A stretch of DNA of 64,000 bases from Candidatus Uabimicrobium amorphum. GTDB lineage: Bacteria; Planctomycetota; Uabimicrobiia; Uabimicrobiales; Uabimicrobiaceae. The translations under genes were made by a program, and so were the position numbers. Below are positions 16,601 through 38,091 of this stretch, in pieces. Numbering within the stretch: position 1 is the stretch's first letter; each line of letters opens with the position of its first letter. The stretch covers positions 744,001 to 808,000 of the forward strand of contig NZ_AP019860.1 in assembly GCF_009002475.1 (NCBI RefSeq). The letters run 5' to 3'. Under the pieces are notes generated by a model, which saw nothing but the letters and a program-made list of their open reading frames with translations, ran no database searches and was not told the origin of the DNA.

Positions 16601-17139
16601 AAAATAATGTATTATATATCGCGAGTAAAGACAAACACATTTATGCTCTTCATTACACCTCGGGAAAACTTTTATGGAAGTATAAGTCCAAGAGAGAATT
16701 TGAGTATTCGACTCCAGCGGTGTATGGGAATTATATACACTTTACAAGTATTGACGGAGCCTTTTATTCTCTGAGCATGAGTGGAAAACAAAAACTGCGT
16801 TATGAAACGTCAGAATCTATTTACGCTTCGCCGTGTTTATTGCAAGGGGTTGCTTACATTGCTAATAAAGATGGTGATTGTTATGGTATTCATTTAAAAT
16901 CAGGAAAAAGAATCTGGGAAGCGGAAGTTAATAATCCTATCTCCACAAGCCCTATTGTCACATCGAAATCTATGTATTTCACGTGTCAGGACGGCTATAT
17001 ATACGAGTTAGATAGAAAAAGTGGCCAAGAAACATGGAGTTATAACATTGGCATTGAAATTACAAAGTCATCGCCAATGATTTACCGCGATACACTCTAT
17101 TTTGGTGGTGATAACGGACACTTATATGCTTTTGATTAA
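13693..17139 (+). CDS. Ser/Thr protein kinase with extracytoplasmic PQQ-type beta-propeller (first of a pair)
   Basis: The kinase domain spans about 17-285: IGEGGMAKVYEA, RAVKHI, GILHRDIKPGN, and GTPSYLSPEQ. The metal-binding motif is DLG (LLDLGIAK) rather than DFG; the catalytic and metal aspartates are kept. A membrane helix lies at about 341-363, then a charged linker and coiled-coil segments (430-590) and a small beta segment (VSISLTNGKFIRGYVTKI). Residues from about 811 to the end are PQQ/WD-like propeller repeats of about 40 residues, each with patterns such as VYIGSLKRKLYALHATTG. No quinoprotein enzyme residues are evident, so a ligand- or partner-binding sensor is more likely. The ATG overlaps the preceding stop. 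It is paralogous in every segment to the next gene. Confidence 0.88.
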   Translation: MNKRHRGEDSVEIGSGERRYKILRSIGEGGMAKVYEAKELSTNKRRAVKHIQVPASYSFKEGVSRFEREYLILRSLSHSNIVRAYDFFTEEPNAFMVLQYVQGLSLRDFIRDRKEKLSFKEQLAICIQIARAVEYINTAGILHRDIKPGNIVLNEVKKKATLLDLGIAKNLETNLTRLTRTGEIVGTPSYLSPEQVGGDITENSDVFSLAVVLYQFLAWEDHSPFQRNNYIATLTAISTYKVPSLHQVLGNRQSKSVSEILDKALEKKSEKRIQTAKHFADLLQEVYENCGQEKSQWNVPQPLNASQAEKLQFIGEKYGRDSVFARRVKRISKRRQKKQQSSTLVALSIAAALFLVLVVVHNLMSVSVVDPDVDDYEEDYRKEQVDTTYDRDNEEKDTYQPQKKKPVATQETQQQESKSKAIQEKYLSILQKMETVSPFEKWKLLEEFVKKYRDAAIAGEAKRRQATVEIEILTVMADLQEKINKGYPSRWAKLTDEFTNLKENFLQLKVSFGKLHKAFGLLQESYDKFSAKVRSFRKDQEDKINRDIKDEFEKALKTRQFATAIFRLGVWDDNKFAKAKIEILSQLQKLFRKVIPALKKNQRRGRKVSISLTNGKFIRGYVTKIGKDSFSLKDYKNNVYKIEYTTITTKTIDKLVSKLDDKDLYYLGLLSFVARDLPEAKMFVARIKKPDEEVQDLVKQITAKISKLEAQKRKVSFISPADWLGKNRVSLSSDTLETLFQIEVTGGKPVEKVLVNGQLAKYDEETSQYTYLVSFLGKDINEIKVEIINRDSSSQEYNWIIDRVEMENFAMFRGSPERTGFYPTGKNFKPRNLKWSFKAKKAIHTSPIGAYNMVYFGSDAGIVYAVDAQSGKEKWQQEIKGIVYATPAIDKGVVYIGSLKRKLYALHATTGEKLWDFPVRGEIKSSAVVVDGIVFFASVDKHVYAVDVKKRNLLWKYKTNGGILSSPVIKNNVLYIASKDKHIYALHYTSGKLLWKYKSKREFEYSTPAVYGNYIHFTSIDGAFYSLSMSGKQKLRYETSESIYASPCLLQGVAYIANKDGDCYGIHLKSGKRIWEAEVNNPISTSPIVTSKSMYFTCQDGYIYELDRKSGQETWSYNIGIEITKSSPMIYRDTLYFGGDNGHLYAFD

Positions 17140-17169
17140 TCTTTCTCGGTATTTACTGAGGACTTGCAA

Positions 17170-20100
17170 ATGGAACTCGACTTAGGAACAAGACTCAACG
17201 GCAGATATTCGATAAAACGTGTTATCGGTCAGGGTAATATGTCTTATGTGTACGAAGCTTTTGATGACTTGTTACAAAGACCCGTTGCGATAAAGCAAAT
17301 GGTTATTCCCCACGGCGCTTGGGATTCAGCATCTTTTATCAAAAGATTTAGGCGTGAATTTCACTTCTTATCTGCTATAGAACATCCCAATGTGATCAAG
17401 GCATATGGCTTTTTTTCGGAAGCAAACACAGCTTTTATGGTTTTAGAAATCGTAAAAGGACCTTCTCTACAGGATTTGATCGTAAAAAGAGCACAAATGC
17501 ATGTTTCTTTATCGATGAATCTAGCCATTGCCATTCAATTGTCACGTGCAATCGAAGTTATTAACACCGCGGGTATTATCCACCGTGATATTAAACCAAC
17601 CAATGTCATCATTAACGATGTGAATAAAAAGTTAAAACTTCTCGACTTAGGTGTCGCTACCACAGTGAAAAGCGAACTTTCGCGTTTGACGAATCACGGT
17701 CACATTGTGGGGACCCCTGATTATTTAAGCCCCGAACAGATAAATGGAGAATATGCCTCGAATAGCGATGTATTCTCTGTGGCAGTTGTTTTATATCAAA
17801 TTTTCGCTGGCGATGACAAATCTCCTTTTCACAACGAAAATCCCATGTCAACGATGATGTCTATTTCGACAAAAGAACTTCCTTCTTTATTAGATATATC
17901 GAATCTTTCCTCTGAGTTGTATCGTCAAACTTATGTAAAAATTTGGGCGGTTTTAGAGAAGGCTCTCATAAAAGAACCCGAAGAACGCATGTCAAGTGCC
18001 ACTGAAATGGCGGACGAGTTTGAGATGATCTATAAAGGATATCGTTTAGCAAAAAGTCGCGTAAAAGAGAAAAAATCACAGGTGGTGAACTGGAACGTCA
18101 TCGAGAAAACCAAACCCGAAGAATTTCAAAAATTAAAAAAATTGGGTGATAAATTTGGCCGCGATGATACTCCGTTGCGTAAACGTAGACGTCGTACCAA
18201 ATCAAAGCGAACTCCTCGCTATCAAGCCGAAAAAAAATCAACGCCCGTTGTTGGATTTTTAGTGATGGCAGTTTTTGTGCTTGCTACGGCGCTGTTTCTG
18301 TTTATACATTTTGCCGAAACAGAAAAAATACCACCGAAAAAAAGTATAGCACAACAAAAAAGCGAGATGTTTGAGCGATTATTATTGCAAATCAAGACAT
18401 TGAAAACACCTGACAAGTGGAGTCGCGTTAACAATTTTAATCTCGAACATTCTTTTGCAAAATCGTTGGCAAAGAAAGAGCAGCTTGAAAGAGATATTTT
18501 CGAAACGCTCATAAATGCCAATGCATTTATGAACAGTAATAACTCTCCCTCTACCAAGCAATTGAAGAAATGGGAAGATATTTATTTTTGGAAGCAGAAT
18601 ATTGCTTTTCTGGAGCTTTACCGAAACGAAAGCAAGATCAAACAACAGTTTGAGTTATTCGAGAAACACTTCTCTGATGTTGAAAAAAATAAAATAAATA
18701 GTTACACCTTGGAAAACAAAATTGGGGTGGAGGTGTATCGAAAGCGCAATTTAAAAAACGTTCGCGAGATTTTGAACGCGATGAGTAACGTCTCCGATTT
18801 GCAGAAAAAAATAATCAAACAGTATCACGAAGAGATCGATACACTGGAAAACGTATTGGTGGCATTCAAAAGAAAAATGCGTTCACTACGCGGTAAAGAT
18901 GTGAAAGTTGTTGTAGGAAAAAAGTGGCTCAAAGTGAAAGTGTTGGAAGTAGAAGACAACTATATTTCCATAAAAAAAGGTTCAAAAACTAGTAAATTTT
19001 ATCTATATAACTTGGACGGTGAAATGCGGCAACTTGACGCGCGAAACTTTGCCTACCACGTACGTCCAAAGTTAGCAAAACAAATATATTGTTATGCTCT
19101 TTTGTTTTACTACGGAAAAAACTACAAGACAGCTTATAAGTATTTGCTTCGATGTGTGAACTATTCGCAAGCTACCTACTTCCTACATCGTACATACCGC
19201 AAAATTTATTCACAACCACTTTTCAAAATGGATGTACTAAAACCACAAAAAATAGAAGACGAAGATGTATTAAATGTAACAACAAACCGTGATACGATTT
19301 CTCTTCGTGGGAAGATTTTAATAAACAAAAATGTAACGACAAAAGCGAAAAAAGATATCATTTCTGGGATAACCATTAATGTCAATGGCAAAAAAGCGCG
19401 ACGTAGAAACAATGAATTTGCATTGTCGTTTCCCGTGGAATATGGTAAAAATTTTATTGATGTAAAACTATCGATTCATAGTGACAAAGAAATTTTGCGC
19501 AAGTCATTTTATGTTGAGCGAGATTTTCCACGTACGCGGAATTTTTCCAACACAAATTTTTTCCCATCGCTCTCTGGAGAATTCCAGGTCCTAAATTGGC
19601 AAAACCATTATGGGAAAAATTTAGGTATACCGGTTGTGCTCAAGCAACACGTGTATGTTAAGGATCACTCCAATATACTTTATAAAACAACAATCAATGG
19701 CGAGATGGTTTGGAAGAAAGACAATGTCAGTGCGCTTACCTATGACGAAATAAAAACAAGCACAAAAAATATATACGAGTATTTTTTGTACATATCTTCT
19801 CCGGATCAACTTGTTTGTTACGATGAGAGTAACATGCAACCTTTGTGGGAAAAATCACTAAGTGATGTGATTTATCCGGGCATTATTTTAAAAAACTACA
19901 TCGTTTTTGCCACCGCGACAACCTTACATGCCATTAATTACAAAACCCAAAAACAGCTTTGGCAAAAAACAATAGCGCCAGCAACAAAGGCGATTCTTGC
20001 CAATAATAGTGCATATTTTGCAATGCAAAATGGAGAAGTAATCTCTTACCGAATAAAAGATGGCAAAAAACGAATAGCACTTGCGACAGGCTCTCCGATT

Positions 20101-20538
20101 TCTTCTGCCCCGACAACATCAGGGCACACCATTTTTGTCGGTAACCACCAGGGAAATTTTTACGCTTTTTTCCAGGGGAAAAAGTTATGGAAATATTCTT
20201 CCAGTGCGTCCATTCGTTATTCTCCCGCCTTTGACGGTGACTATGTTTATTTTGTCAATGATGACAATAAACTATATTGTTGCGATGCACGACTTGGAAA
20301 TTCTCTATGGGTTTACCAAGCACAAGAAAAAATTATATGTCAACCGCTTGTGGCAAAAGACAAAATTTTTCTTTGCACACAACCAGGAAAAATATTATCG
20401 ATAGATCGCAGCACAGGCCAAAAAACCTGGCAGTACGCAACGCAAAATACTATAAGCCACTCTGCACCAACGATAGAAGGAAAAACGATGTACATCGGAG
20501 ATGACGGCGGAAATCTATATTCGTTGAAATTTGATTAG
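17170..20538 (+). CDS. Ser/Thr protein kinase with extracytoplasmic PQQ-type beta-propeller (second of a pair)
   Basis: This has the same design as the preceding gene: kinase at about 10-290 (IGQGNMSYVYEA, VAIKQM, GIIHRDIKPTN, LLDLGVAT, GTPDYLSPEQ), membrane helix at about 357-380, helical linker, a small beta module (VKVVVGKKWLKVKVLEV) and a propeller from about 793 to the end. It shares the DLG variant of the DFG motif with its neighbour, which fits tandem duplication followed by strong divergence. The ATG at 17170 is chosen because GAGGA lies 7 nt upstream; a TTG two codons earlier is in frame but badly spaced. It is the last gene of the three-kinase run, with a strong hairpin terminator about 150 bp downstream. 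Confidence 0.88.
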   Translation: MELDLGTRLNGRYSIKRVIGQGNMSYVYEAFDDLLQRPVAIKQMVIPHGAWDSASFIKRFRREFHFLSAIEHPNVIKAYGFFSEANTAFMVLEIVKGPSLQDLIVKRAQMHVSLSMNLAIAIQLSRAIEVINTAGIIHRDIKPTNVIINDVNKKLKLLDLGVATTVKSELSRLTNHGHIVGTPDYLSPEQINGEYASNSDVFSVAVVLYQIFAGDDKSPFHNENPMSTMMSISTKELPSLLDISNLSSELYRQTYVKIWAVLEKALIKEPEERMSSATEMADEFEMIYKGYRLAKSRVKEKKSQVVNWNVIEKTKPEEFQKLKKLGDKFGRDDTPLRKRRRRTKSKRTPRYQAEKKSTPVVGFLVMAVFVLATALFLFIHFAETEKIPPKKSIAQQKSEMFERLLLQIKTLKTPDKWSRVNNFNLEHSFAKSLAKKEQLERDIFETLINANAFMNSNNSPSTKQLKKWEDIYFWKQNIAFLELYRNESKIKQQFELFEKHFSDVEKNKINSYTLENKIGVEVYRKRNLKNVREILNAMSNVSDLQKKIIKQYHEEIDTLENVLVAFKRKMRSLRGKDVKVVVGKKWLKVKVLEVEDNYISIKKGSKTSKFYLYNLDGEMRQLDARNFAYHVRPKLAKQIYCYALLFYYGKNYKTAYKYLLRCVNYSQATYFLHRTYRKIYSQPLFKMDVLKPQKIEDEDVLNVTTNRDTISLRGKILINKNVTTKAKKDIISGITINVNGKKARRRNNEFALSFPVEYGKNFIDVKLSIHSDKEILRKSFYVERDFPRTRNFSNTNFFPSLSGEFQVLNWQNHYGKNLGIPVVLKQHVYVKDHSNILYKTTINGEMVWKKDNVSALTYDEIKTSTKNIYEYFLYISSPDQLVCYDESNMQPLWEKSLSDVIYPGIILKNYIVFATATTLHAINYKTQKQLWQKTIAPATKAILANNSAYFAMQNGEVISYRIKDGKKRIALATGSPISSAPTTSGHTIFVGNHQGNFYAFFQGKKLWKYSSSASIRYSPAFDGDYVYFVNDDNKLYCCDARLGNSLWVYQAQEKIICQPLVAKDKIFLCTQPGKILSIDRSTGQKTWQYATQNTISHSAPTIEGKTMYIGDDGGNLYSLKFD

Positions 20539-24568: not shown

Positions 24569-25726
24569 ATGGAGAAGAAGATCGAAGATATTTTCTGGGA
24601 AAATAATATTTTTGAACAAAGAGTGAAGGGGAAATCGTTACTGCAAATAGAAAGTGATACTTTCTATGAAGGTTGTGCCTTTTATTTAAACGAAGAGGAA
24701 TGTTACTGTATCGAAGATAGCTATTTTTATAATTGTTCTTTTCGCGGGAATGTTCATTTCAGTGGCTTAGAAGGTTGTAAGTTTGATAATTGTAACTTTT
24801 GTGGAACGTTCGCGCTTGATTTTTCGGAAAGTATTTGGCCTGATAAACATTTTTGTAGTTTATACGATCTTACAAAGTTGAATTTACGCGATAGCAATAT
24901 GTGCACTTTGCCTTGGAAATTTCGTTTTTTAGTAAATTTGTGCGAATTAAATTTATCAGACAACGCTATGGGTTATTTTCCACCTGAAATTTTGTTTCTC
25001 GACAAACTATGTTATTTGGATATGTCCGAAAATGGAATTGAATTTATACCGAAAGAAATAGTGCAGTTACAACAACTGTCGGTTCTCAATTTGTCATACA
25101 ATAATTTATATGATGTATTATCTCCAAATCTATGTGAATTGAGGAACTTGGAAGAGTTAAATTTGACGTCGAATTACATTAGGCATTTACCCGAGGAGTT
25201 TGCTAAATTACAAAAAATTTCTATACTAAATCTAGAATACAATACTTTAAGTAGAGTACCTCTCGCGATTACAAAACTGCAAAATCTAAAATTTTTAAAT
25301 TTCTCTTATAACCGCATTCGTAATTTGCCAAAGGAATTTGAACAGTTGCAAAATCTTAGGACATTACGACTTGCTAGAAACCAAATAAGTAGTTTTCCTG
25401 AGGAAATTTTTTTACTTACAAATCTACAAAGTTTAGACTTATCAATAAATTTACTACCTAGTATACCTGAAGAAATAGGGCAACTCGAAAAACTTCGCCA
25501 TTTAAGATTCGTCGATAACCAATTGAAACAAATTCCATTAGAATTGTGTCGGTTGCAAAATCTAGAAACGCTCGATTTAAGTGACAACGATTTAAGACAC
25601 CTACCATCAGAAATACATCGCTTAAAAAGTTTGCGACTTTTATATTTGAAAAATACTGGAATAGGTTGGTGGCAACGACAGAAAATCAAGTCGTGGTTAC
25701 CAAATTGCGAGATACATTGGCAGTGA
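24569..25726 (+). CDS. Leucine-rich-repeat protein with Cys-rich N-terminal cap
   Basis: Residues 1-85 form a Cys- and Phe-rich region (CAFYL, CSFRG, GCKFDNCNFCG) that resembles a short pentapeptide-like solenoid. From about 100 to 365 run about eleven 23-residue leucine-rich repeats of the LxxLxLxxNxLxxLPxEIxxL type, the class also found in eukaryotic-like bacterial LRR proteins. There is no signal peptide, so the protein is probably cytosolic and binds a protein partner. The N-terminal cap is shared with the LRR gene at 35065-36255 (CAFYL; CSFR; KCKFxNCxF), so the two are one family. The ATG at 24569 has no strong ribosome binding site. The kinase gene begins 41 bp downstream. Confidence 0.85.
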   Translation: MEKKIEDIFWENNIFEQRVKGKSLLQIESDTFYEGCAFYLNEEECYCIEDSYFYNCSFRGNVHFSGLEGCKFDNCNFCGTFALDFSESIWPDKHFCSLYDLTKLNLRDSNMCTLPWKFRFLVNLCELNLSDNAMGYFPPEILFLDKLCYLDMSENGIEFIPKEIVQLQQLSVLNLSYNNLYDVLSPNLCELRNLEELNLTSNYIRHLPEEFAKLQKISILNLEYNTLSRVPLAITKLQNLKFLNFSYNRIRNLPKEFEQLQNLRTLRLARNQISSFPEEIFLLTNLQSLDLSINLLPSIPEEIGQLEKLRHLRFVDNQLKQIPLELCRLQNLETLDLSDNDLRHLPSEIHRLKSLRLLYLKNTGIGWWQRQKIKSWLPNCEIHWQ

Positions 25727-25767: not shown

Positions 25768-28700
25768 ATGGATGATTACCAAACAAAAGAATTACCATCG
25801 GATAATACATGGCACGGCTATCAAATTATTAAAGAAATTGGTCGTGGTGGAATGGGTTGTGTCTACAAAGCATTCCAGACGGAACTTAAACGTACGGTAG
25901 CGCTAAAAATTACCTTAACGGCGTCTTCTCAAACAAGTAATCGTCGCTTTGTGCGCGAAATGAAAATTGCGGCGCAGTTGGATCATCCTAATATTTGCAA
26001 AATTTACGATGCGGGAATCATTGACGATAAAAAATATATGGTGATGGATTACATTGAAGGACTTTCTCTCAAAGAATATCTGAAACAGCACGATTTATCT
26101 GTGGAGGAAAAAATTCGTCTGATGATGAAAATTTGTGCAGCTCTTAGTTATGCCCATCAGCGAAAAATAGTTCATCGCGACTTAAAACCCGAAAATATCA
26201 TGATGGATAAAAACAATGAGCCGATTGTGATTGATTTTGGTTTGGCAAGACGTGTCGACTCCTCAGAGTTTGATCTAACGAAAACAGGAGATGTTGTAGG
26301 AACGCCTTACTATATGGCTCCTGAGCAGATTGCTGGCTTGCGAAAAAATATTACGCATCAAGTGGATATTTACGCGATGGGTGTGATTCTTTACGAAGTT
26401 CTGACGGGAAAGCGCATGATGGAAGGGGCCAATGTTTTTGAGGTGATGTGCCGTATCCACGATAGAAATTATGTTCCGCTGCGTGTACAAAACCCCGAAT
26501 TAAGTAGAGATTTACAAACTATTTGGGAGAAAGCAACGTATCCCGAGCGCAAGTATCGCTACGCAAATATCGACTTGCTTAGTTTAGATTTGCAGGCATT
26601 TCTCAACAACAAGCGTGTCAAAAAAAGTCCTCACAAACAAATGCGAATGCTTAGTTATGGTTTGGCGATTTTGTGCATAACCATGATAACATTTTTATTT
26701 ATGCCGCGAAATGATCGTTTACTTGTAAATATTAAATTGAGTCGTGCGGCAAAAGAGCGTTTGCAAGAGCGTTTGCGTTACTTTGAGGCGATTCTTACAC
26801 ATATCGACAAACGCGAATTTGATGTGGCCGAGCACAAATACAAAGCCAGAAGGTTGAGTCCGTCACAGTATATTACATTGGTGAAAGAACTTTACGAAAA
26901 AAACGAATATGACAGGGCTTTTGCTCTATTGTCTGAGGTGGAAGATCGTGTTGTCGCAAAGTACTACAAAGCAATTATCCTATACCATAAACAACAGTAT
27001 AAATTGGCAGAAAAAATCTTACGTAAATTACCCGGATATGCGAATAAAAACTATTACCTTGGGTTATGCCTATATCATATCGCCCGCAAATACAATAAGT
27101 TTGACTTGTTCGGCGAAGTTCTTACCTTACTTGAGAAGAAAAAATATCAGGACGATATCAACGTGTTGGTCGCGCTTGCGGCAATACATCGTTATCGTAA
27201 ATCACAAGTAGCGAAAGAATATTTTCAAAAATGTGTGGCGAAAGAACCATTCGCTGCCAAACATTCTGTGCCATTAGCTAGAATATACATTCAGGAGAAT
27301 AGACACTATGACGCTTTCGTGCTTATTCGTAAAATTCTAGATAGCGATAACACCCTAAATGCATACGAGGTATTGCACGAGATTCCGTACTACGAACCGA
27401 CGTTAAATAGGTTTTGTTACCAGACGGTAGTGAATGGCTTTTTTCGCGATATCCAATTACACACTCCACATTTATTTTTGCAACAGTGCGTGGCTGTTCA
27501 ACAAGGTTATCGCGAAAGGTATACTTCGTGGTTGCGGTTGCAAGTTCCACAACAAAGCTCTTTGGCAACGATTTTTGATAAATTACCAAATGCCTCACTT
27601 GAAGTACAAAAATTGTTGAAAAAAGCGATGATGAATTTGCGTTACAGTCGAAATTTCCACCAACAAATCGAAAACTTCATTGCACAAGACATTACGCCAC
27701 AAATAGAAAATTTTTTGCGTGAAGTGCAAAAACAAGCGCGACGCGAAAAAGATAAAGAAATCATGGCAATGATTTTATATCGATTGGCGCGTATTGAACA
27801 AAACAGGGCATGGTCTCAAAGTGAATGGCGGCACAGTGATATGGATACACTTTTCCACTACGTATTATCCAATGGTACGAGTGTATTTGAAAAATATTTA
27901 TTGGTAAAAGGAATATTACATTTCTATGGTGTAGCACCTCTGATAAAAATACTACATGATGACGGAAAAGATGCCATATTACGTACAATTGTTGCCGCCA
28001 CATTTCGCGAGTATCACTTAGCCGCCAAGATTGATGTATTTTTTCAACTTCCGCAAATGCAGGAACGAATTTCCTCTGCTAGAGAGCAAGAATTTTTTAA
28101 GATTTTAATCGCACGCTCTATGTATGTAACTCATGCTTACAAACATTTAGATACCTTTTATCGTAAAATTAACTACAAAGAAAGACGCACGGAAGTTTCG
28201 CGTAAGGAAAGAGATCTCTTATTGTATCTAATGACAGACTCTTCGTTGAAGGTGCGTGTGATCGCAGCAGGGAGCTTGCATGGGCTTATGGATGAAAGGC
28301 AAGATGCAAAGACAGTTAAAATGAGCCGTGATGTTTTGACAAGATGGGGAATGCGTGCGACGCAAAATGTTGTGCGCGCATACTCTCATTTTATATTTTG
28401 GCAGAAAAAACAAGTTATACAGCCAGAGTATTTACCACTATATCGCGCAGGCTTACAGGACCCAAGTATGGAGGTGAAAAAAACAGTTCTTGGTTTTCAC
28501 TTAAAGGTAGGGAGTTACATTCCAAAAATTTCCAAAGAACTAGAGAAATGTTTAACTTTATCACCCGAAATTAGAAGATTGGCGCTTTTTGCTCTGGTTA
28601 TGAATAAAAGGAGTAAAAAACTAATTTTCGAAGAAAAATTTTATCCAAGTATCGCCAAAGACTTCCTACCGGTAGAGCACAGTATGGTATTTTTAACTAC

Positions 28701-29892
28701 GTTGTACCGCATTATGGATGACTTTAAAAGTACAAACAAAATTGACTTTTCCACAATAAAAAAGCTCATTGATTTTATGAATTACACAAAAACATATATC
28801 CATTCCTTGCCTCCCAGCTCACAGTGTATGATTAGTTATATTTTAACGATGTTCAATGTACACACTGACCATGCGTATTTAGATAAAATTAACGATCCGT
28901 TTTTGTTGTCGTATCTGTTATTTCAACTACAACAGGAAGCTATTTTCTCAAATCAGATGCCAAAGGGTTTTGTAAAGAGTCCAACGTTGAAGGAACGAAA
29001 AGATATTGCCAAAGAATACCTGAAATATCCCCATGCAAAAGTGAAGCAATTTGCCACAACCAGCTACATTTCATTGGGTGACGAAAACGTGGGGAAAAAC
29101 TATGTAAGGATCGCGAAAAAGTGGCCAAAATTAAAACGTTTTGTCGCTTTGGGAATTCGGGGTTTTACCGAGAGACGTTGGTTGAAAAAAGTTAAGGTAG
29201 GCCCTACAGTTGCGATGTGGTCAAGTGCCGAAACTCTCTATGTCAAATCTTTGCGTCAAACGCATCAATTTTTAAATAGCGCAAAAAATAGCCATGAAAA
29301 AAATAAGGCGATGAGATGGTTCGATTTAATGTGTTCGCTGGACCCTAAAGGGGATAAGTATTTTTTTGAAAGAGCATATTTCTTTAACCAAAAAGATGCA
29401 CTTGCTGATGTGAATAAGGCGATGGAAATAAACCAGGACTACCGCGCGGGGTACCTAAAGTTGTATTACTCTTTAGAGGGGTTGACAATTGCCATTCGTC
29501 GTCGGGAAAATACCGATTTGTATTTGCAAAAACTACGCAAGCAATCCTTGCACCCTTCGTTATTTTCTGAGGTGGCAAATGCATATGTCATTGTTGGGAA
29601 GTTGGAGGAAGCGCTTAGTGTGTACGAACGAAATTTTTTCGCTACTCAGGGGAATTTTGAATTGTTTTCGGAAATTTTCACCAGAGATTTGCAGATGGTA
29701 AATATTTACTTAAAGCAAAAGGATCGGAAAACTGCTACAGTGATGTTGGAGTATTTGTATCAAATTTTCCGTCGTGGAAATTACACCACTAACAAGCGTC
29801 AAAAGTTTTTTGTAAAAATGGTAAAAGAAAAATTACCCAATTTCGTACCGTTTATAGATAACTGGTCGCAGGAGCGCGAAGTTTTAGAATAG
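25768..29892 (+). CDS. Ser/Thr protein kinase with TPR and HEAT-like repeats (paralogue of 9776-13696)
   Basis: The kinase domain at about 18-285 has all motifs: IGRGGMGCVYKA, VALKIT, KIVHRDLKPEN, VIDFGLAR and GTPYYMAPEQ. A membrane helix at about 291-312 is followed by TPR-type repeats (about 360-520), a long helical middle, HEAT-like repeats (about 795-1145) and a few final TPR-like units. Order, spacing and length match the kinase at 9776, so both descend from one gene. The long part probably lies in the periplasm and senses or docks a partner; its ligand is unknown. The ATG at 25768 has only a weak upstream purine stretch (GGGAAAAAATT). It ends the gene run that begins at 24210. Confidence 0.9.
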   Translation: MDDYQTKELPSDNTWHGYQIIKEIGRGGMGCVYKAFQTELKRTVALKITLTASSQTSNRRFVREMKIAAQLDHPNICKIYDAGIIDDKKYMVMDYIEGLSLKEYLKQHDLSVEEKIRLMMKICAALSYAHQRKIVHRDLKPENIMMDKNNEPIVIDFGLARRVDSSEFDLTKTGDVVGTPYYMAPEQIAGLRKNITHQVDIYAMGVILYEVLTGKRMMEGANVFEVMCRIHDRNYVPLRVQNPELSRDLQTIWEKATYPERKYRYANIDLLSLDLQAFLNNKRVKKSPHKQMRMLSYGLAILCITMITFLFMPRNDRLLVNIKLSRAAKERLQERLRYFEAILTHIDKREFDVAEHKYKARRLSPSQYITLVKELYEKNEYDRAFALLSEVEDRVVAKYYKAIILYHKQQYKLAEKILRKLPGYANKNYYLGLCLYHIARKYNKFDLFGEVLTLLEKKKYQDDINVLVALAAIHRYRKSQVAKEYFQKCVAKEPFAAKHSVPLARIYIQENRHYDAFVLIRKILDSDNTLNAYEVLHEIPYYEPTLNRFCYQTVVNGFFRDIQLHTPHLFLQQCVAVQQGYRERYTSWLRLQVPQQSSLATIFDKLPNASLEVQKLLKKAMMNLRYSRNFHQQIENFIAQDITPQIENFLREVQKQARREKDKEIMAMILYRLARIEQNRAWSQSEWRHSDMDTLFHYVLSNGTSVFEKYLLVKGILHFYGVAPLIKILHDDGKDAILRTIVAATFREYHLAAKIDVFFQLPQMQERISSAREQEFFKILIARSMYVTHAYKHLDTFYRKINYKERRTEVSRKERDLLLYLMTDSSLKVRVIAAGSLHGLMDERQDAKTVKMSRDVLTRWGMRATQNVVRAYSHFIFWQKKQVIQPEYLPLYRAGLQDPSMEVKKTVLGFHLKVGSYIPKISKELEKCLTLSPEIRRLALFALVMNKRSKKLIFEEKFYPSIAKDFLPVEHSMVFLTTLYRIMDDFKSTNKIDFSTIKKLIDFMNYTKTYIHSLPPSSQCMISYILTMFNVHTDHAYLDKINDPFLLSYLLFQLQQEAIFSNQMPKGFVKSPTLKERKDIAKEYLKYPHAKVKQFATTSYISLGDENVGKNYVRIAKKWPKLKRFVALGIRGFTERRWLKKVKVGPTVAMWSSAETLYVKSLRQTHQFLNSAKNSHEKNKAMRWFDLMCSLDPKGDKYFFERAYFFNQKDALADVNKAMEINQDYRAGYLKLYYSLEGLTIAIRRRENTDLYLQKLRKQSLHPSLFSEVANAYVIVGKLEEALSVYERNFFATQGNFELFSEIFTRDLQMVNIYLKQKDRKTATVMLEYLYQIFRRGNYTTNKRQKFFVKMVKEKLPNFVPFIDNWSQEREVLE

Positions 29893-29911: not shown

Positions 29912-29945
29912 TAAAAAAGTTTGGCACCTATTCAAGGTGCCAAAC
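29912..29945 (-). terminator. Intrinsic terminator for the cystatin/papain operon
   Basis: Read on the minus strand, an 11-bp perfect stem, GTTTGGCACCT/AGGTGCCAAAC, with a 5-nt loop is followed by a run of six T. It lies about 60 bp after the stop of the minus-strand gene ending at 30004. On the plus strand no T run follows, so it is oriented for the minus strand. Confidence 0.85.
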
Positions 29946-30003: not shown

Positions 30004-30957
30004 TTAGTTGCTTTCGATTTTGTATTGTATCTTTTTGCCTTTGGGATCGACAGAGAACAGACAACGTTGTTTTTTTCCTATGAAAACGACATGTGCCTTT
30101 TCATGAGTCCTCGTTGGGCTGTAACTCCCGTCTTCTAACTTACCACCTACCAACAATACATTGCCTTTTTCGTCAAAGCTATATACAACTAAGATTTCTT
30201 CAGGTTTTATTTTTGTGATATGTGAAACAATGTACATCACCTTGCTTGTGTTTACCTTACATGTGTTTTTTGAGCATGCAATTTCGATATACTGCATTTT
30301 TCCAGAAGACATCGCTGTTTCACGTGCTTTTATACATGAATTCTTCATTATTTTTCCCAATGAATCCATGTCGGAAACATGACCTTCTATTTTGGTGATT
30401 GATACATCACCATTGAGCTTTTTGTAAGCATATACTTTGTACGGCAGTTTTAAGCTATGGTAACTCAACTGCATTTCCATACAGTAAACTGTCCCGGCAA
30501 CAATTTGTTTGCCAATCGCATGTGTACTTTCCACAAAATAGCCATGTTTTTCTAGTTTCGAAGTCACTGTGGCAATAATATTTTTTGCCTCAGATGAATC
30601 TTTACTGAGTGCTTCATAGCCACCTAAGACAGACTTGTCTATGGAAATTATTTTTACAATAGACGTTTTGCCATCAAGGGTTTTGTGGGCATACAGCTTT
30701 ACGATTACTTTTTCTTTATTGTGGCGAAACTGCAATGCGAAGTAATAGTTGGTACCCGCTACGATTTGGTATCCTGCCTTTTGTGCTTTTACAAAAACAT
30801 AACCCTCGTGTGTTTTGCAAAATAAATCGCAAACTGTGGGAATCACATCGGCAACATACGCATCGTTTACCGCTACCTGGGTATAGCCGCCTAGAATATC
30901 TTTCTCATCGGCGGCAATGCAAGATAGGCACAACACAAAAATACAAAACTTTTTCAT
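30004..30957 (-). CDS. Exported double-cystatin-domain protein (probable cysteine protease inhibitor)
   Basis: A signal peptide (residues 1-16, ending SCIAA) precedes two cystatin-like domains, about 21-110 and 111-205. Each has the hallmarks of the family: a Gly-Gly pair near the domain start (ILGGYT, VLGGYE), a helix, and the QxVxG loop, here QIVAG twice (QIVAGTNYYFAL and QIVAGTVYCMEM). Cystatins block papain-type proteases by inserting these elements into the active-site cleft. The last 110 residues contain several cysteines and a beta-rich pattern that I do not recognise. The gene starts 10 bp after the stop of a secreted papain-family protease, so it most likely encodes the inhibitor of that enzyme; direct inhibition is inference from motif and context. 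Confidence 0.82.
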   Translation of the reverse strand: MKKFCIFVLCLSCIAADEKDILGGYTQVAVNDAYVADVIPTVCDLFCKTHEGYVFVKAQKAGYQIVAGTNYYFALQFRHNKEKVIVKLYAHKTLDGKTSIVKIISIDKSVLGGYEALSKDSSEAKNIIATVTSKLEKHGYFVESTHAIGKQIVAGTVYCMEMQLSYHSLKLPYKVYAYKKLNGDVSITKIEGHVSDMDSLGKIMKNSCIKARETAMSSGKMQYIEIACSKNTCKVNTSKVMYIVSHITKIKPEEILVVYSFDEKGNVLLVGGKLEDGSYSPTRTHEKAHVVFIGKKQRCLFSVDPKGKKIQYKIESN

Positions 30958-30967
30958 TGCATACTCC

Positions 30968-32419
30968 TTATTTGCGGAAGTATGTCATGGATGGGTTTGG
31001 ACGACCAACAAAGCACATGTGGGTAAATCCATATTTCTTTATCTTTGCATATGCTTCGTATGCTTCGTTTTTCTTTTTCCCAAAACTCATCAACCACGAC
31101 CGACCATCAACAATTTTCCAGTCACCTTTTATGAACTGTACGCGTATTGTTCTTGGGTTAAATCGAATCGCGTCTTCTCCAGGGAAAGCTCCTACAGGAG
31201 ACTTACCATTCACTAGATAATATTCCATGGATGGATTTGGTCTTCCGACAAAGCACATTTTATTTAAACGATAACGTTTCATGATCGCCAAAGCTTTTAC
31301 CGCTTCTGCACGATTTGAACCAAAGTCTTTTAACCATGACCGACCATCAACGATTTTCCAACGTCTCTTAATATTCACAACTTTTATTCTCGCGGGATTG
31401 AATGGAATACAATCTTCTTTTCGTGGTGTAGGCATTTTTTTAGAGAGTACCCATGCCGCCGCATAACCTATGCGCGAACAATTGTAGGAAATGTACATGT
31501 ACCCTTTTTCTCTACCATAACCAGCCGTAGAGCCCCAGCCACTTCCCCAAGAATTTTTAATGATCCACGCGCGTTTGGTGTCATCCCAACCGATCAGTGT
31601 TACACCGTGGTTAACACTTTTGTTCACATTGTGATTGAATACACCACCAGTGTAAGCTTGAAAAGCTGGTGAAACGTGAACAGCTACCGCTAAAGGACCA
31701 TAGCGAAGAAGCGCTCTTTTGATATCGGTAACATTTGGGTTCATCCCCTTTACATATCCCCAGGCAATGGCCTTGTAGTATTTAGGGATAGAGTTATTAC
31801 ATGGTTTGTCGTTTGCTGTGTAAGGATATCTGGCTTCTGAAGCAACGCCTTTGTTGATCAAGAAGTCAAAAGCCCACCAACCACCACGACATGTTCCCTT
31901 ACCACTACAATTTAAAACACACTGTTCCGAAGCATCAATGGAGCGCGAATTTCTAAGTCGATCGTTGCCTTCAAAAGCTCCAATAGTAGCAAAAGCCCAG
32001 CAACTACCACATGCTCTTTGATTGCGCACGGGAGAAACCTTACCTCTTGTGCGCCAATCCCAACGGCGTAAAACAAAAAAACTGTTAAGTTTTTTGATGG
32101 CATCCGGAGTTTGCTTCGGTAGAAGTTGGATCGCCTTCGTTGATTTCGCGTTTTGTAACTGTATAGATTGTCCTAAATTACCAGGCGCTTTTAATCCAGC
32201 CAATTGTGTAAGTGAACGGTCCATTGCTGTGGTATAACCAACATTAAAAGACCACTTTTGAGAAATTTTTTGCGAGCGCAAAGTTTGTATTTTTTGTTTC
32301 AACACAACACTCATTTTATTTTCACGTTGTAGGTAAAATTTATCTATTTTTTGTACCTGTTGCGCAAAAACGATTTGTGCTAGCAAAAAAGATGCTAATA
32401 AATATATAGTTTTTTTCAT
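30968..32419 (-). CDS. Secreted papain-family (C1A) cysteine protease with two C-terminal repeats
   Basis: The signal peptide is residues 1-19 (SFLLAQIVFA). A propeptide-like region of about 95 residues is followed by the mature domain starting near WDWRTRGKVSPVRNQ. The catalytic set is complete: oxyanion glutamine in VRNQRACGSCWAF, Cys140, His271 in VNHGVTLIGW and Asn289 in IIKNSWGSGWG. After residue 330 come two copies of a roughly 65-residue module with the phrases WKIVDGRSWL and CFVGRPNPSM, perhaps for binding a surface or substrate. The enzyme presumably cuts proteins outside the cytoplasm. It is the first gene of a two-gene operon with the cystatin-like protein, which could shield the cell from it. 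Papain-like proteases with their own inhibitor are rare in bacteria. Confidence 0.92.
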   Translation of the reverse strand: MKKTIYLLASFLLAQIVFAQQVQKIDKFYLQRENKMSVVLKQKIQTLRSQKISQKWSFNVGYTTAMDRSLTQLAGLKAPGNLGQSIQLQNAKSTKAIQLLPKQTPDAIKKLNSFFVLRRWDWRTRGKVSPVRNQRACGSCWAFATIGAFEGNDRLRNSRSIDASEQCVLNCSGKGTCRGGWWAFDFLINKGVASEARYPYTANDKPCNNSIPKYYKAIAWGYVKGMNPNVTDIKRALLRYGPLAVAVHVSPAFQAYTGGVFNHNVNKSVNHGVTLIGWDDTKRAWIIKNSWGSGWGSTAGYGREKGYMYISYNCSRIGYAAAWVLSKKMPTPRKEDCIPFNPARIKVVNIKRRWKIVDGRSWLKDFGSNRAEAVKALAIMKRYRLNKMCFVGRPNPSMEYYLVNGKSPVGAFPGEDAIRFNPRTIRVQFIKGDWKIVDGRSWLMSFGKKKNEAYEAYAKIKKYGFTHMCFVGRPNPSMTYFRK

Positions 32420-32742: not shown

Positions 32743-32781
32743 AACAAAAATATATAAAAACCCATGTCAGGAGAAAAAATA

Positions 32782-33438
32782 ATGGCATGGATTAGTATCG
32801 GTAAAGTTGCTGCTCTTTTTGGTGTTACAACACAAGCGATCAGGTTGTGGACATATGAAGGAAAGCTATCAGCAAGAAGAACGTTAGGTGGTCACAGAAG
32901 ATATAACCTGGAAGAAATAGAAAAAATACTAGGAATAGAAAGCAAAAACAAGAAAACAGTGTTGTACTCAAGAGTAAGCGCTCACGACCAGAAAGAAGAT
33001 TTGCTAAGACAGAAGAAAGAGTTACGGGATTACATCGAAAAACAAGAACATTGCAACGTAGTGGAAATATCAGAAATAGGTTCAGTGTTGAACTATGCAA
33101 AACGTGGATTGAAAAAGTTACTGAATCTAATACTAAGTGGTGGCGTAAGGCGAATAGTAGTCTCATACAAAGATAGGCTGATGCGCTTTGCAACGCAAAT
33201 ACTGGAACAGGTATGTGCAGCAAAAAATGTCGAAATAGTGATCCTTAACGAAAGACCACAAAAAAAGTTTGAAGAGGCAGTAGTTGAAGATGTTTTATGT
33301 GTGCTAACCGTTTACTGTGCAAAGATCTATGGAAGACGATCGCATGAGCGAAGAAAAAAAAGACAAAATAAAAAATGGTCAGGTACTGGCATATCCCATA
33401 GTGATAGAAGAAAAGAAAGTAGCAGAAAAACTACGTGA
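32782..33438 (+). CDS. tnpA: IS607-family serine recombinase/transposase TnpA
   Basis: The 218-residue protein has an N-terminal MerR-like helix-turn-helix (ISIGKVAALFGVTTQAIRLW, with the typical GGHRRY) and a serine-recombinase domain. The catalytic serine is about residue 66 in LYSRVSAHDQ, and RIVVSYKDRLMRF is the conserved arginine-bearing motif. This enzyme cuts and rejoins the element through a covalent serine-DNA link. The ATG at 32782 is preferred over one six codons upstream because AGGAG lies 8 nt before it. The end overlaps tnpB by about 95 bp in another frame, as is common in this family. All key residues are present, so the gene looks intact. Confidence 0.92.
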   Translation: MAWISIGKVAALFGVTTQAIRLWTYEGKLSARRTLGGHRRYNLEEIEKILGIESKNKKTVLYSRVSAHDQKEDLLRQKKELRDYIEKQEHCNVVEISEIGSVLNYAKRGLKKLLNLILSGGVRRIVVSYKDRLMRFATQILEQVCAAKNVEIVILNERPQKKFEEAVVEDVLCVLTVYCAKIYGRRSHERRKKRQNKKWSGTGISHSDRRKESSRKTT

Positions 33439-34978
33439 AACATTGGAATATGTGCAGCAAAAAAGCAACGAGTACCTGGAGTTTGCTCATGAAAACAGAT
33501 TGTATAATGTGTTTGATAAAAACAAAAGTAAGTACTCTTACAAAGTACTTGAACCAATATTTGTAAAGCTGTACAGGCAAAGTAAACTACCAAGTAGAAT
33601 AAATCGTGGGGTGCTAGAGATTGTCGGACGTACGATGCGCCAGGTGAGAGATCGCAAGCGAGTATTTGACTTGCTGATGAAAAAAACACAAGACCCAAAG
33701 AAGTGGACAAGCAAACTCCTGGTAAAAGATGGTATCTACATAAAAATAGATTACATAAAAAACATCAAAGAGCAGGTGATCAACTACAAACGCAAAAACA
33801 ACAACGAGCTACCACAAGATTTCTATGCCCTACAAAAGCCACCAAAAGTAAAAAAGAAGATACTCACATATGCCCCAGATGATGGTCAGGCAATCAAAAT
33901 AGAAAAGAAAAACAACAAAGTAGTTGTTAGTTTTAAAGTGATTGACAGAAAAAATGGAGCAATCAAGTGGTATTGGCTCAAAACAAACATCAAACTTCCG
34001 TTATTTTTAGAAGACAAACATATCACTTCTCCAGATATTCGTTTTGAATGTGTTAGAGGTAATTACTTACCTGTACTTGATTTCAAGGTAACAATAGAGA
34101 AGCCTCAAAAAATAGAAAGTGGTAACTTCATCACTTTTGACTGGGGAGTTCGCAAGCTCACCACTTTGTGTGTGTTTAACGAAAAAGGACAACAACTTTC
34201 TCAACCACATTTTGTCAATTTCTCAAGAGTGCAGGATAAGTTGCAGCGTATCTACAAAGATATTGACCACTGGAAAAGTAAACGCGACAAACTCGCCCAT
34301 AAAGATTCTTTGTTCAAAAAGTGTAACAGAGAAATTGCTAAAAGATGGAGCAAAATAACAACTCTTAATAAGGAAATTGCTCACACCACTGCAAACATCA
34401 TTGTTTTCTTTGCTCAACACTTCAACTGTTCGAAAATCTACTGCGAAAATCTCAAATCACTTAAGTCACAAAAGAAATCAAAAGATAAAAATCGCGAAAT
34501 CAACACCACTGTTCGTCAGAAAATCATGAGTCTAGTCGACTACAAGGCTCGTTTGTGTGGGATCACTCTGGCAAAGCCTGTTCACCCGGCAGGTACCAGT
34601 TCTCTTTGCCCTCGATGCTCTCACAAAGGACAACACATTAAAGCCTCTGACAATAAACAAAAAATACACAAAACTTTTTCGTGGTTTCACTGTGCAAAAT
34701 GCAAATTTTCTGCAGATCGCGATTATGTTGCCTGCATCAATATTGCTCGCAAAGTTCTCTTCAAAAAGAATCTCAAAAAATGTACAAAAACAGTCGTCTA
34801 TAAGAAGACTCGTTTGCCTGATTCACTGTTTCGTCAGGACGCTGGTGCTAAAACCCATTGCACCAGTCACATTCATTACTTGAAGGGCTGGATACACTCT
34901 GTATCTTTATCTTCCATAGTCGTACAAAAGAGTTTTAATTCTTTTAAAGGTACTATCTTTGGAATCCTTCGTGTATGA
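33344..34978 (+). CDS. tnpB: TnpB, RNA-guided nuclease of the IS607 element
   Basis: From the ATG at 33344 (GGAAG 8 nt upstream; GTG at 33317 and ATG at 33329 are alternatives) the protein has 544 residues. The RuvC-like nuclease motifs are complete: the first aspartate in FDWGVRKLTTL (about 265), the glutamate in CENLKSLKS (about 368) and the last aspartate in ADRDYVACINIA (about 457). A zinc ribbon (CPRC near 422 and CAKC near 450) lies between them. TnpB proteins cut DNA under the guidance of a right-end RNA and help the element persist. At 544 residues it is longer than the usual 370-450, with extra sequence at both ends. It appears intact and overlaps tnpA. Confidence 0.92.
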   Translation: MSEEKKDKIKNGQVLAYPIVIEEKKVAEKLRETLEYVQQKSNEYLEFAHENRLYNVFDKNKSKYSYKVLEPIFVKLYRQSKLPSRINRGVLEIVGRTMRQVRDRKRVFDLLMKKTQDPKKWTSKLLVKDGIYIKIDYIKNIKEQVINYKRKNNNELPQDFYALQKPPKVKKKILTYAPDDGQAIKIEKKNNKVVVSFKVIDRKNGAIKWYWLKTNIKLPLFLEDKHITSPDIRFECVRGNYLPVLDFKVTIEKPQKIESGNFITFDWGVRKLTTLCVFNEKGQQLSQPHFVNFSRVQDKLQRIYKDIDHWKSKRDKLAHKDSLFKKCNREIAKRWSKITTLNKEIAHTTANIIVFFAQHFNCSKIYCENLKSLKSQKKSKDKNREINTTVRQKIMSLVDYKARLCGITLAKPVHPAGTSSLCPRCSHKGQHIKASDNKQKIHKTFSWFHCAKCKFSADRDYVACINIARKVLFKKNLKKCTKTVVYKKTRLPDSLFRQDAGAKTHCTSHIHYLKGWIHSVSLSSIVVQKSFNSFKGTIFGILRV

Positions 34979-35074
34979 GTGTTATACACTACTTTAGATT
35001 TTTTAGTCTAAATAGAAACGGTGTGAATTAGAAAGTCTAAGAGGGAAGGTATTTATACCAGGCTCTAATACCTT
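34979..35074 (+). ncRNA. Candidate right-end guide (omega) RNA region of the TnpB element
   Basis: TnpB guide RNAs are normally made from the 3' end of tnpB and the element right end. Here two hairpins follow the stop codon: one within CTACTTTAGATTTTTTAGTC, and AAGGTAT/ATACCTT at 35046-35074, whose right side overlaps the end of the LRR gene. The position fits, but boundaries and expression cannot be judged from sequence alone. Confidence 0.3.
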
Positions 35075-36255
35075 TGCGAGTAAACTACTCTGCAGTTTGG
35101 CAGTGATTTTTTCATTTCTGAAATTTGGTTTTGTATTAGATCGTTATTAGGTAAATAGAGCGTATTGAGGTTTCGAAATTGTCCTATTCCCTTTGGAATC
35201 TCTGTTAAATCATTTTTATGTAAATAAAGTTCTTTGAGTTTTTGGAGTTGACCGATCTCTTTTGGTAACTTTGTGAATTGATTTTGGGACAATTCCAGGT
35301 GAGTAAGATTTTGGAGTTGACCGATCTCTTTTGGTAAGTCTACTAAATTATTCTGATGCAAATAAAGTTCTTTGAGGTTTTGGAGCAGGCCTAATTCTTT
35401 TGGTAGCACTGTTAATTGATTTTTGGACAAATCTAGGTGAGTGAGGTTTGGGAGCAGGCCTAATTCTTTTGGTAGCACTGTTAATTGATTTTTGGACAAA
35501 TTTAGGCGCGTAAGGTTAGGGAGCAGGCCTAATTCTTTTGGTAGCACTGTTAATTGATTTTTGGACAAATCTAGGTGAGTGAGGTTTGGGAGCAGGCCTA
35601 ATTCTTTTGGTAGCACTGTTAATTGATTTTTGGACAAATTTAGGCGCGTAAGGTTAGGGAGCAGGCCTAATTCTTTTGGTAGCACTGTTAATCGATTACC
35701 GCGCGAAACAAGCCTCTTTAGGTTTTGTAGTTGGAATATTTTTTTTCGTAGTCTCGTTAATTTGTTGCGAGATAAAACGAGATCCCTAAGATTTTGGAGT
35801 TGTGCTATTTCCTTTGGTAGCCCTGTTAATTGGTTTAATTGCAAATGAAGTTCCTGGAGATTTTGCAGTTGTCCTATCTCTTTTGATAACCTTGTTAATT
35901 GGTTGTAGTTCAAATTTAGCTTCTTGAGATTTGGGAGTTGAACGATCTCTTCTGGTATCTCTGTGAATTGATTGGAACCCAAATTTAGGTAAGTAAGATT
36001 TTGTAGTTGCCCGATCTCTTTTGGTAGTGCTGTTAACCTGTTGCGACGCAAATCAAGCAAGAAGCCATTAGAGAATCCACAATTAGAGAACTTACACTTT
36101 TGTATCTTACTGACTTGAAGGTGAGACCTAAAACTACAATCAATGAACAGGCAGTTATTTATAGAATATAGTCTATTCTCCAAGTAAAACGCACAGCATA
36201 TATATTGGGTGTTGTTCTCTATATCTTGTAGTGATTTGTTTTTTATTGTTTTCAT
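35065..36255 (-). CDS. Leucine-rich-repeat protein with homogenised repeats
   Basis: The protein has 396 residues. The first 70 form the same Cys-rich cap as in the LRR gene at 24569 (CAFYL, CSFR, KCKFSNCGF). Then come about thirteen 23-residue leucine-rich repeats. Five central repeats are almost identical (LPKELGLLPNLTRLNLSKNQ and a variant with THLDLS), while the outer ones have diverged normally, which shows recent expansion or gene conversion. There is no signal peptide, so a cytosolic protein-binding role is likely. The stop at 35065 lies at the right edge of the IS607 element, but the C-terminus (SLPNCRVVYSQRY) compares well with the paralogue (WLPNCEIHWQ), so the gene does not seem cut. 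It lies 138 bp downstream of the CNBD kinase gene. Confidence 0.85.
   Translation of the reverse strand: MKTIKNKSLQDIENNTQYICCAFYLENRLYSINNCLFIDCSFRSHLQVSKIQKCKFSNCGFSNGFLLDLRRNRLTALPKEIGQLQNLTYLNLGSNQFTEIPEEIVQLPNLKKLNLNYNQLTRLSKEIGQLQNLQELHLQLNQLTGLPKEIAQLQNLRDLVLSRNKLTRLRKKIFQLQNLKRLVSRGNRLTVLPKELGLLPNLTRLNLSKNQLTVLPKELGLLPNLTHLDLSKNQLTVLPKELGLLPNLTRLNLSKNQLTVLPKELGLLPNLTHLDLSKNQLTVLPKELGLLQNLKELYLHQNNLVDLPKEIGQLQNLTHLELSQNQFTKLPKEIGQLQKLKELYLHKNDLTEIPKGIGQFRNLNTLYLPNNDLIQNQISEMKKSLPNCRVVYSQRY
35383..35727. repeat. 69-bp tandem repeat inside the LRR gene, with 138-bp higher-order unit
   Basis: GAGCAGGCCTAATTCTTTTG starts at 35383, 35452, 35521, 35590 and 35659, exactly 69 bp apart. Alternate copies share variants (GGTGAGTGAGGTTTGGGAGC against GGCGCGTAAGGTTAGGGAGC), so the copy pair of 138 bp has itself been duplicated. 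The unit equals one 23-residue leucine-rich repeat. Confidence 0.95.
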
Positions 36256-36393: not shown

Positions 36394-38091
36394 TTAAGGC
36401 CGGAGAACGTCGTCCCTCTTGCGACGTAGAGTGAACTTATGCTTAGTAGATAAATAATCGGTGGCTTCTTGTGCGAGTTGTAGTGCTTGAGTTTTGGTCT
36501 CTTCACCGGCTTCTGGTAGTTGTGGTATGGGAAAAGCGATGTCGAGTTTTTTCATCTTATGTACAAAATGCAGGAAGTAGGCAAATAAAGAGAAATCGTT
36601 GATTTTAAAAGTCTCAGAGTTTATTTTTTGGCAGATGCTACTCGTGGCTAAGTATTTGAGGGCGGTTTGTACTTTTTGCTGGCGCATACACAGGTTTGCA
36701 GCAATTTGTTTCGTCAAGGTGTTGATGTTGAATTCTATCTCTTCGGTTTTGATTTGAAAAGCCATTTGCGAAAGAAGAATATAGGTAAATTGGTGGAGTA
36801 CATGGTACAAACTGTCCCCCAGTAGAAGTGGATGTGCGTTTTTGTCTGTGGTTTGTAGGCGGTCGACTAAATTGAAGATAAGTTTTCCTACCCAGGGGGG
36901 TAGTTTTTGTAGGACCTCTTCCATTCTTTGGTGATTGATAATCAGAACTTGGGTGTCTGTGGCGGCGACAACACTTGCCATGCGTACTTGTTCTGAAATG
37001 ACCGCCATTTCTCCGACAATGTTTCCCGCCTCTACTGTTGCAAGAAGATATTCTTGGTCGGCACGTGTTTGAATGACATCGACCTTACCTTTTAATATGA
37101 AGTATGCTTCGGTTCCTTTTTCGTCTTGGCGAATCAGAACTTCGCCTTCTTTGAATATAACAGGCTCGGAAACAATAGATCCTGCGGTAAAGTCATCTAA
37201 ATCTGCGCATAGGTCTTCCACTTTTTGGTAGCGATGTTCTTTTTTGTGGGCAAGAGCTTTCATGGTAATCTTTTGTAATTCGGTGGGGATTTGCTGCATG
37301 GGGTTCATTTTTTGTGGAGGAACAACTCTTCCCAACATACTAGATTCAAGTACTTGCGCCAGCGATTCGCCTTGGTGAGGTGGAGAAAACGTCAGTAGCT
37401 CGTATAAAGTACCCCCTAGAAGGTATATGTCACTTTGGTGGTCGACTTGTGAGGTGTCGTCGTCGAGTTGTTCTGGGGAAATGTACAAAGGGGTACCGAG
37501 AATTTCATCATAACTAGTTTGGCTAAAATCTTGTTTCGAGCGCAAAGATTGTATGCGCCGGGATTCTAGTGGTGTATCGGCATCTGCCTGGGTGTACTTG
37601 GCGATCCCCCAGTCCATCAACAATACTTCTCCATACTCTCCGACCATGATATTATCAGGTTTTATGTCACGATGGATGACATGGCAAGAATGTGCAAAAG
37701 CAACCGCATCACAAACTTTGCGAAAAATAATTAGGCGTTTTACTAGCGGATACTTCTCAATATATTGTTTGTCTCCCTTTTTGAGTTTTTCTATGATGTC
37801 ACACAGTGGCTCGCCATGAACCATTTTCATCGTAAAATAAGGATGACCGTCGTTAAGCATTCCCATATCGTGAACCGGAACGATATTGGGATGTTCTAGC
37901 TGGGCGGTGATCAATGCTTCTTCAAAAAAATAATCGCGGTCGCGCTTGTGTACAGGGACATTTTCTGGCGGGGAGAGTACTTTCATTGCCAAATGTCGAC
38001 GCAAACTTTTTTCGAATATTTCGTAAATGACACCCATTCCCCCACGGGCGAATTCGCATTTTATATGATATCTTCCGCTAGCTTCTTTCAT
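36394..38091 (-). CDS. Ser/Thr protein kinase with cyclic-nucleotide-binding domain and C-terminal HTH-like region
   Basis: Residues 8-280 are a kinase domain: FARGGMGVIYEI, LAMKVL, VIHRDIKPDN, LMDWGIAK (DWG in place of DFG) and GTPLYISPEQ. Residues about 302-420 form a cNMP-binding domain (EGEVLIRQDEKGTEAYFILK, then GNIVGEMAVISEQVRMAS), like that of CRP-type regulators. A helical region follows; TLTKQIAANLCMRQQKVQTA at about 450-470 resembles a Crp-type helix-turn-helix. There is no membrane helix, so unlike the other kinases here it is probably fully cytosolic and may be controlled by a cyclic nucleotide. It lies 32 bp behind the COG0523 GTPase gene, which suggests one transcript with that gene and the M1-like protein. 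Confidence 0.88.
   Translation of the reverse strand: MKEASGRYHIKCEFARGGMGVIYEIFEKSLRRHLAMKVLSPPENVPVHKRDRDYFFEEALITAQLEHPNIVPVHDMGMLNDGHPYFTMKMVHGEPLCDIIEKLKKGDKQYIEKYPLVKRLIIFRKVCDAVAFAHSCHVIHRDIKPDNIMVGEYGEVLLMDWGIAKYTQADADTPLESRRIQSLRSKQDFSQTSYDEILGTPLYISPEQLDDDTSQVDHQSDIYLLGGTLYELLTFSPPHQGESLAQVLESSMLGRVVPPQKMNPMQQIPTELQKITMKALAHKKEHRYQKVEDLCADLDDFTAGSIVSEPVIFKEGEVLIRQDEKGTEAYFILKGKVDVIQTRADQEYLLATVEAGNIVGEMAVISEQVRMASVVAATDTQVLIINHQRMEEVLQKLPPWVGKLIFNLVDRLQTTDKNAHPLLLGDSLYHVLHQFTYILLSQMAFQIKTEEIEFNINTLTKQIAANLCMRQQKVQTALKYLATSSICQKINSETFKINDFSLFAYFLHFVHKMKKLDIAFPIPQLPEAGEETKTQALQLAQEATDYLSTKHKFTLRRKRDDVLRP

Follow-up and report, generated by a model that had tools for sequence, protein, structure and literature searches.

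What is a cystatin gene doing directly behind the gene for a papain-type protease in a bacterium? In animals and plants, cystatins restrain papain-type proteases, and the question is raised by two adjacent genes of Candidatus Uabimicrobium amorphum that lie in the window (the whole stretch of 64,000 nucleotides that was analysed, to which the gene coordinates below refer). This planctomycete, with 179 putative peptidases, engulfs prey, which is apparently digested in vacuoles; it also engulfs small eukaryotes, and prey digestion has been described by gene lists and microscopy only (PMC6906331). The surrounding DNA encodes many large Ser/Thr kinases that also contain TPR, BamB-like propeller or HEAT-like regions (9776-20538, 25768-29892, 36394-38091 and 44848-48117), in agreement with a published account of kinase expansion in this organism (PMC11032199), alongside LRR proteins (24569-25726 and 35065-36255). 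The reading favoured here, to which a probability of roughly 0.6 is assigned, is that the pair is an operon for an exported C1A zymogen and an exported tandem-cystatin inhibitor, the latter expected to bind and inhibit the enzyme and so to protect the cell against its own prey-digesting protease.

The first gene (30968-32419, (-) strand) encodes a protein of 483 aa that is, by its sequence, a papain-type (C1A) protease with predicted activity. It matches Pfam Peptidase_C1 at E=1.6e-48, with a score of 166.1 bits against a cut-off of 20.7, and plant and cathepsin-type papains top the list of its phmmer matches in the PDB (E~1e-36). A first-pass annotation, made from the sequence alone, had claimed a complete Q/C140/H271/N289 site, and this is borne out: the oxyanion-hole glutamine Q134 and the catalytic C140, H271 and N289 stand in papain context within the catalytic domain (about aa 117-327; 31439-32071 (-)), which is delimited by Pfam, PDB phmmer and sequence. 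The mature papain start is preceded by a leader that by eye resembles a signal peptide (aa 1-19, MKKTIYLLASFLLAQIVFAQ; 32363-32419 (-)) and by a probable pro-region of ~97 aa (aa 20-116; 32072-32362 (-)), which is probably inhibitory. Alignments with a paralog (55% identical), encoded at 5.299 Mb of the genome without an adjoining cystatin, and with the ortholog in the related genome G004 (59%) start at aa 7 and cover the pro-region. Internal alignment of the C-terminal part reveals two repeats of ~64 aa (aa 338-401 and 418-481; 30977-31408 (-)) with the consensus W.IVDGRSWL..FG...EA..A...K.Y....MCFVGRPNPSM.Y; they belong to no named family in Pfam or NCBIfam, and a fold search with a single-sequence model (pLDDT 70) gave no match. 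The repeat is found in one other genome among 392 planctomycetes, in a large secreted-looking protein (G144), and also in Rhodovulum plasmid proteins whose genes lie two away from a baseplate J gene.

The second gene (30004-30957 (-), 317 aa) encodes a two-domain cystatin, as identified by Pfam Cystatin, AlphaFold2 (AF2) fold and Foldseek. It begins with a signal-peptide-like leader, again judged by eye (aa 1-16, MKKFCIFVLCLSCIAA; 30910-30957 (-)), in which no lipobox match was found. Domain 1 (aa 19-106; 30640-30903 (-)) is defined by Pfam, profile and AF2, and domain 2 (aa 108-195; 30373-30636 (-)) by the relatives' profile, AF2 and the tree; each has the Gly-Gly and QIVAG that had been read from the sequence at first pass, at GG23-24 and QIVAG64-68 in the former and at GG112-113 and QIVAG151-155 in the latter. 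Pfam Cystatin scores domain 1 at 26.9 bits (cut-off 22.2) and misses domain 2, which is detected at 111.2 bits by a profile that was built from relatives and itself includes domain 2. The two domains are 34% identical and are sisters in the tree (support 99/95); being mutually closest, they are most likely the products of a duplication within this lineage. The cystatin tree is too short, and its support too poor, to be read for a eukaryotic origin by horizontal transfer. AF2, given an alignment of the mature inhibitor and 49 bacterial relatives, modelled both domains with pLDDT block means >90 over most of their length, and in both the order of elements is a strand, a long helix and long antiparallel strands. 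The top Foldseek matches in the PDB were sesame phytocystatin and potato multicystatin, which are plant multidomain cystatins; single cystatins cover one domain, and potato multicystatin and ricistatin bound to cathepsin V each reached a TM (target) score of 0.75. A profile of the order's cystatin domains likewise finds potato multicystatin (9e-21) and human stefin A (2.6e-9). For the first-pass annotation, a predicted structure without the cystatin fold was one of the outcomes that would tell against it; according to the AF2 models and Foldseek, both domains are of that fold, a five-stranded sheet that curls round a single helix.

Does the fold still inhibit? The glycine and the QxVxG loop are invariant across 50 bacterial cystatin sequences. 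The type-2 Pro-Trp (PW) of the second hairpin is absent from both domains, which have a stefin-like Leu-Asp/Asn-Gly there; this rules out membership of type 2 alone, as stefins also lack PW. It is conceivable that the domains have kept the fold and lost inhibition, as several vertebrate cystatins have, and that the operon serves another role. The missing PW would fit such a loss, as would the sequence QIVAGTVY in domain 2 (QVVAGxNY in other bacterial domains) and the unexplained C-terminal tail of the inhibitor, but GG and QxVxG have been retained in both domains although these are 34% identical, and stefins without PW and plant cystatins with QVVAGxLY still inhibit. Loss of inhibition is considered very improbable.

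The tail itself (aa 200-317, ~118 aa; 30007-30360 (-)) is modelled by AF2 with low confidence, including the C-terminal 100 residues, and its PDB matches are uninformative, being confined to the last ~30 residues. Its similarity to the C-terminal tail of the cystatin in the related genome G001 is marginal, 15 of 500 shuffles attaining the same score. Long extra C-terminal parts on both proteins, alongside their leaders, could be taken to mean that the inhibitor is mainly a regulator or delivery partner, co-secreted in a complex with the protease and delivering it, still inactive, to the prey vacuole, with the inhibitor tail or the protease repeats acting as the address; a role in packaging or deployment has been proposed for a toxin-fused bacterial cystatin-like domain (PMC12419801). 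Searches of both C-terminal parts, however, returned no homologue whose function is known, and a delivery role is judged quite unlikely.

The layout of the two genes agrees with what had been described at first pass. The cystatin gene lies directly 3' of the protease gene on the same (-) strand, the gap is exactly 10 bp (30958-30967), and no terminator was found within it; the shared intrinsic terminator lies 3' of the cystatin gene (29919-29945 (-)) and has an 11-bp stem, a 5-nt loop and a TTTTTT tail. The Shine-Dalgarno sequence of the cystatin gene, AAGGAG (30964-30969 (-), TAAGGAGTATGCAATG), overlaps the stop codon of the protease gene (TAAGGAG). From this layout, a two-gene operon-like arrangement is predicted. 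The genome (9,503,417 bp, AT-rich, a single contig) contains a single cystatin gene and two clear C1A genes, and the chance that the sole cystatin gene would fall directly 3' of one of the two C1A genes is 2/6659, or about 3e-4, with the gene number of 6659 taken from the genome paper (PMC6906331). Chagasin, as an alternative inhibitor, is absent from this genome and present in one relative. Directly upstream of the operon is an IS607-type element (32764-34978, (+) strand), in which a TnpA with MerR-HTH and serine-resolvase parts overlaps a TnpB with a Cas12f1-like TNB domain.

The pairing is far less widespread than its parts. The cystatin profile was positive in each of the six order genomes covered and in 0 of 386 other planctomycetes sampled; within the phylum cystatins are not strictly confined to the order, as cystatins of another branch occur at two loci of planctomycete MAGs that lay beyond the sample (L067 and L072). 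C1 proteases (E<=1e-10) are found in five of the six order genomes and in 25 of the 386 others (Fisher 1e-5), a co-occurrence of cystatin and C1A that is not independent evidence because the order is one clade. Each relative with a cystatin has at least one C1-family gene, the sole one of G005 being divergent. In five order relatives that have both families, all outside the genus, no cystatin gene adjoins a C1 gene; the neighbours of their cystatin genes include recA, neutral ceramidase, TatD DNase and a large membrane protein, and some of these cystatins have lipoprotein-like leaders. When 64 cystatin loci of bacteria in many phyla (four of them records of the order relatives) were searched with the C1 profile, with a positive control, no C1 protease was found in flanks of up to 5 kb. 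Among 25 listed of 119 Pfam families in the immediate neighbours of bacterial cystatins there was no C1 family and there were two S8 subtilases. With no C1 gene near a cystatin in the relatives or at the other loci, the operon pairing is so far known in this genome only, and the conserved adjacency for which the first-pass annotation had proposed a search is absent from the five relatives and from ~60 other bacterial cystatin loci.

Other architectures were met at these loci. Multicystatins with 2-4 tandem domains occur in Lachnospiraceae, other Firmicutes, Fibrobacter and Sphingomonas (L093 2256-3665, L075 3993-5309, L073 5290-5997, L104, L114, L119 and L120) and are apparently commoner in bacteria than the literature suggests. 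In Bacteroidota, a cystatin domain forms the C-terminus of amidohydrolase-like proteins 660-810 aa long (L087, L096 and L108), and Fibrobacter has flavodoxin-like lipoproteins with the cystatin domain at the C-terminus (L106 4377-5246 and L113 4359-5246).

The distribution of the genes bears on a further explanation, in which the cystatin is a general shield of the envelope or vacuole, or a weapon, against the cysteine proteases of others, such as engulfed picoeukaryotes or competitors, and its adjacency to a C1A gene is coincidental or reflects loose co-regulation. The cystatins of the relatives are unlinked to C1 genes, the majority of bacterial cystatins are secreted as single proteins and have no C1 gene nearby, a lipobox being present in several of them, it has been argued that bacterial cystatins target host proteases (Kordis and Turk 2009; PMC2784779), and Ca. 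Uabimicrobium amorphum does take in small eukaryotes (PMC6906331). A chance of about 3e-4 for the adjacency and the operon-like spacing nevertheless speak against coincidence, the predator is free-living and has no host, and the cystatin-bearing relatives all have at least one C1-family gene of their own (in G005 the divergent one only). A shield or weapon is held to be unlikely.

Operons of a papain-fold protease and its inhibitor are established in bacteria, namely SpeB-Spi, staphopain-staphostatin and the Bacteroides C10-Bfi/Bti systems (PMC3462683). The first-pass annotation had called such a pair rarely described in bacteria, which is only partly right given these operons: it appears to hold for a cystatin with a C1A enzyme, and fails for papain-fold protease-inhibitor operons generally, including the C10-Bti operons (PMC3462683). 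SpeB-Spi and staphopain-staphostatin also consist of an exported papain-fold protease and a contiguous inhibitor, co-transcribed in those systems and thought to protect the producer (PMC3462683), but their proteases belong to C10 and C47, not C1A, and their inhibitors are not described as cystatins and are thought to be cytoplasmic, whereas the cystatin encoded here has an export leader. The staphostatin fold is a lipocalin-like beta-barrel and not that of a cystatin (PMC7863939, PMC3462683), and Spi is unrelated to staphostatins in sequence. The Bacteroides systems are similar in that the inhibitor is exported, is predicted to be periplasmic or a lipoprotein, and is encoded 4-14 bp from the protease (PMC3462683); they differ in having staphostatin-like inhibitors of 116-138 aa and C10 proteases. 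Co-directional contiguous genes, a short gap and a shared terminator were all found at the present locus; conserved linkage and an inhibitor of the Spi/staphostatin type were not.

With the cystatin superfamily (MEROPS I25: stefins, multicystatins and kininogens) the inhibitor has in common the fold, the N-terminal GG and the QxVxG loop, and its tandem domains recall potato multicystatin and the kininogens; it differs from I25 cystatins in being bacterial, in having no PW hairpin, in its extra tail of 118 aa and in the position of its gene beside that of its presumed target. Bacterial stefins and cystatins were surveyed by Kordis and Turk (2009), who listed none in Planctomycetes, mentioned no operon and judged endogenous control of bacterial proteases unlikely (PMC2784779); the bacterial cystatin domains of that survey have conserved inhibitory motifs, as this inhibitor does. 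A search of open-licence papers found no bacterial cystatin-C1A operon, and a cystatin version of the papain-fold protease-inhibitor operon with a C1A enzyme appears to be undescribed.

In the favoured reading, self-protection against a protease of the cell's own, both proteins would cross the inner membrane, their leaders being judged by eye. In the periplasm, each cystatin domain would plug the active-site cleft of the mature protease by means of the GG segment at its N-terminus and of its QIVAG loop, and by blocking prematurely activated enzyme the inhibitor would spare the cell's own envelope. The protease may then be set free to digest prey, in the prey vacuole or outside the cell, on dilution, in acid or once the inhibitor is cleaved. 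The inhibitor could also cover the unlinked paralog at 5.299 Mb. As the cystatin genes of the relatives are unlinked to C1 genes, an action in trans on C1A enzymes generally is probable, and linkage in this genome would match the expression of protease and inhibitor. The same estimate of about 0.6 weighs the protein families, the catalytic tetrad, the fold and motifs, the gene layout, the low chance of adjacency, the absence of chagasin and the predatory host in favour of self-protection, against unconserved adjacency, the lack of PW, leaders judged by eye and a protease that has its own probable inhibitory pro-region. The 'digestive or predatory protease' suggested at first pass suits the predatory host and the export leaders seen by eye.

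In the literature searched, the functions given for bacterial cystatins are guesses, with no test among them. A cystatin directly behind a cathepsin-like enzyme in a predator that has no host makes control of an own protease a testable idea, contrary to the earlier judgement (PMC2784779). More tentatively, and at somewhat less than even odds, the cystatin may be a dedicated guard that protects a bacterium with a phagocytosis-like habit against its own cathepsin-like digestive protease, in parallel to the lysosomal cathepsin-cystatin system, with the coupling of inhibitor and C1A enzyme being order-wide and the operon having formed here. If true, this would supply a concrete component of the machinery with which a prey-engulfing bacterium digests, and cathepsin-cystatin control would be shown outside eukaryotes.
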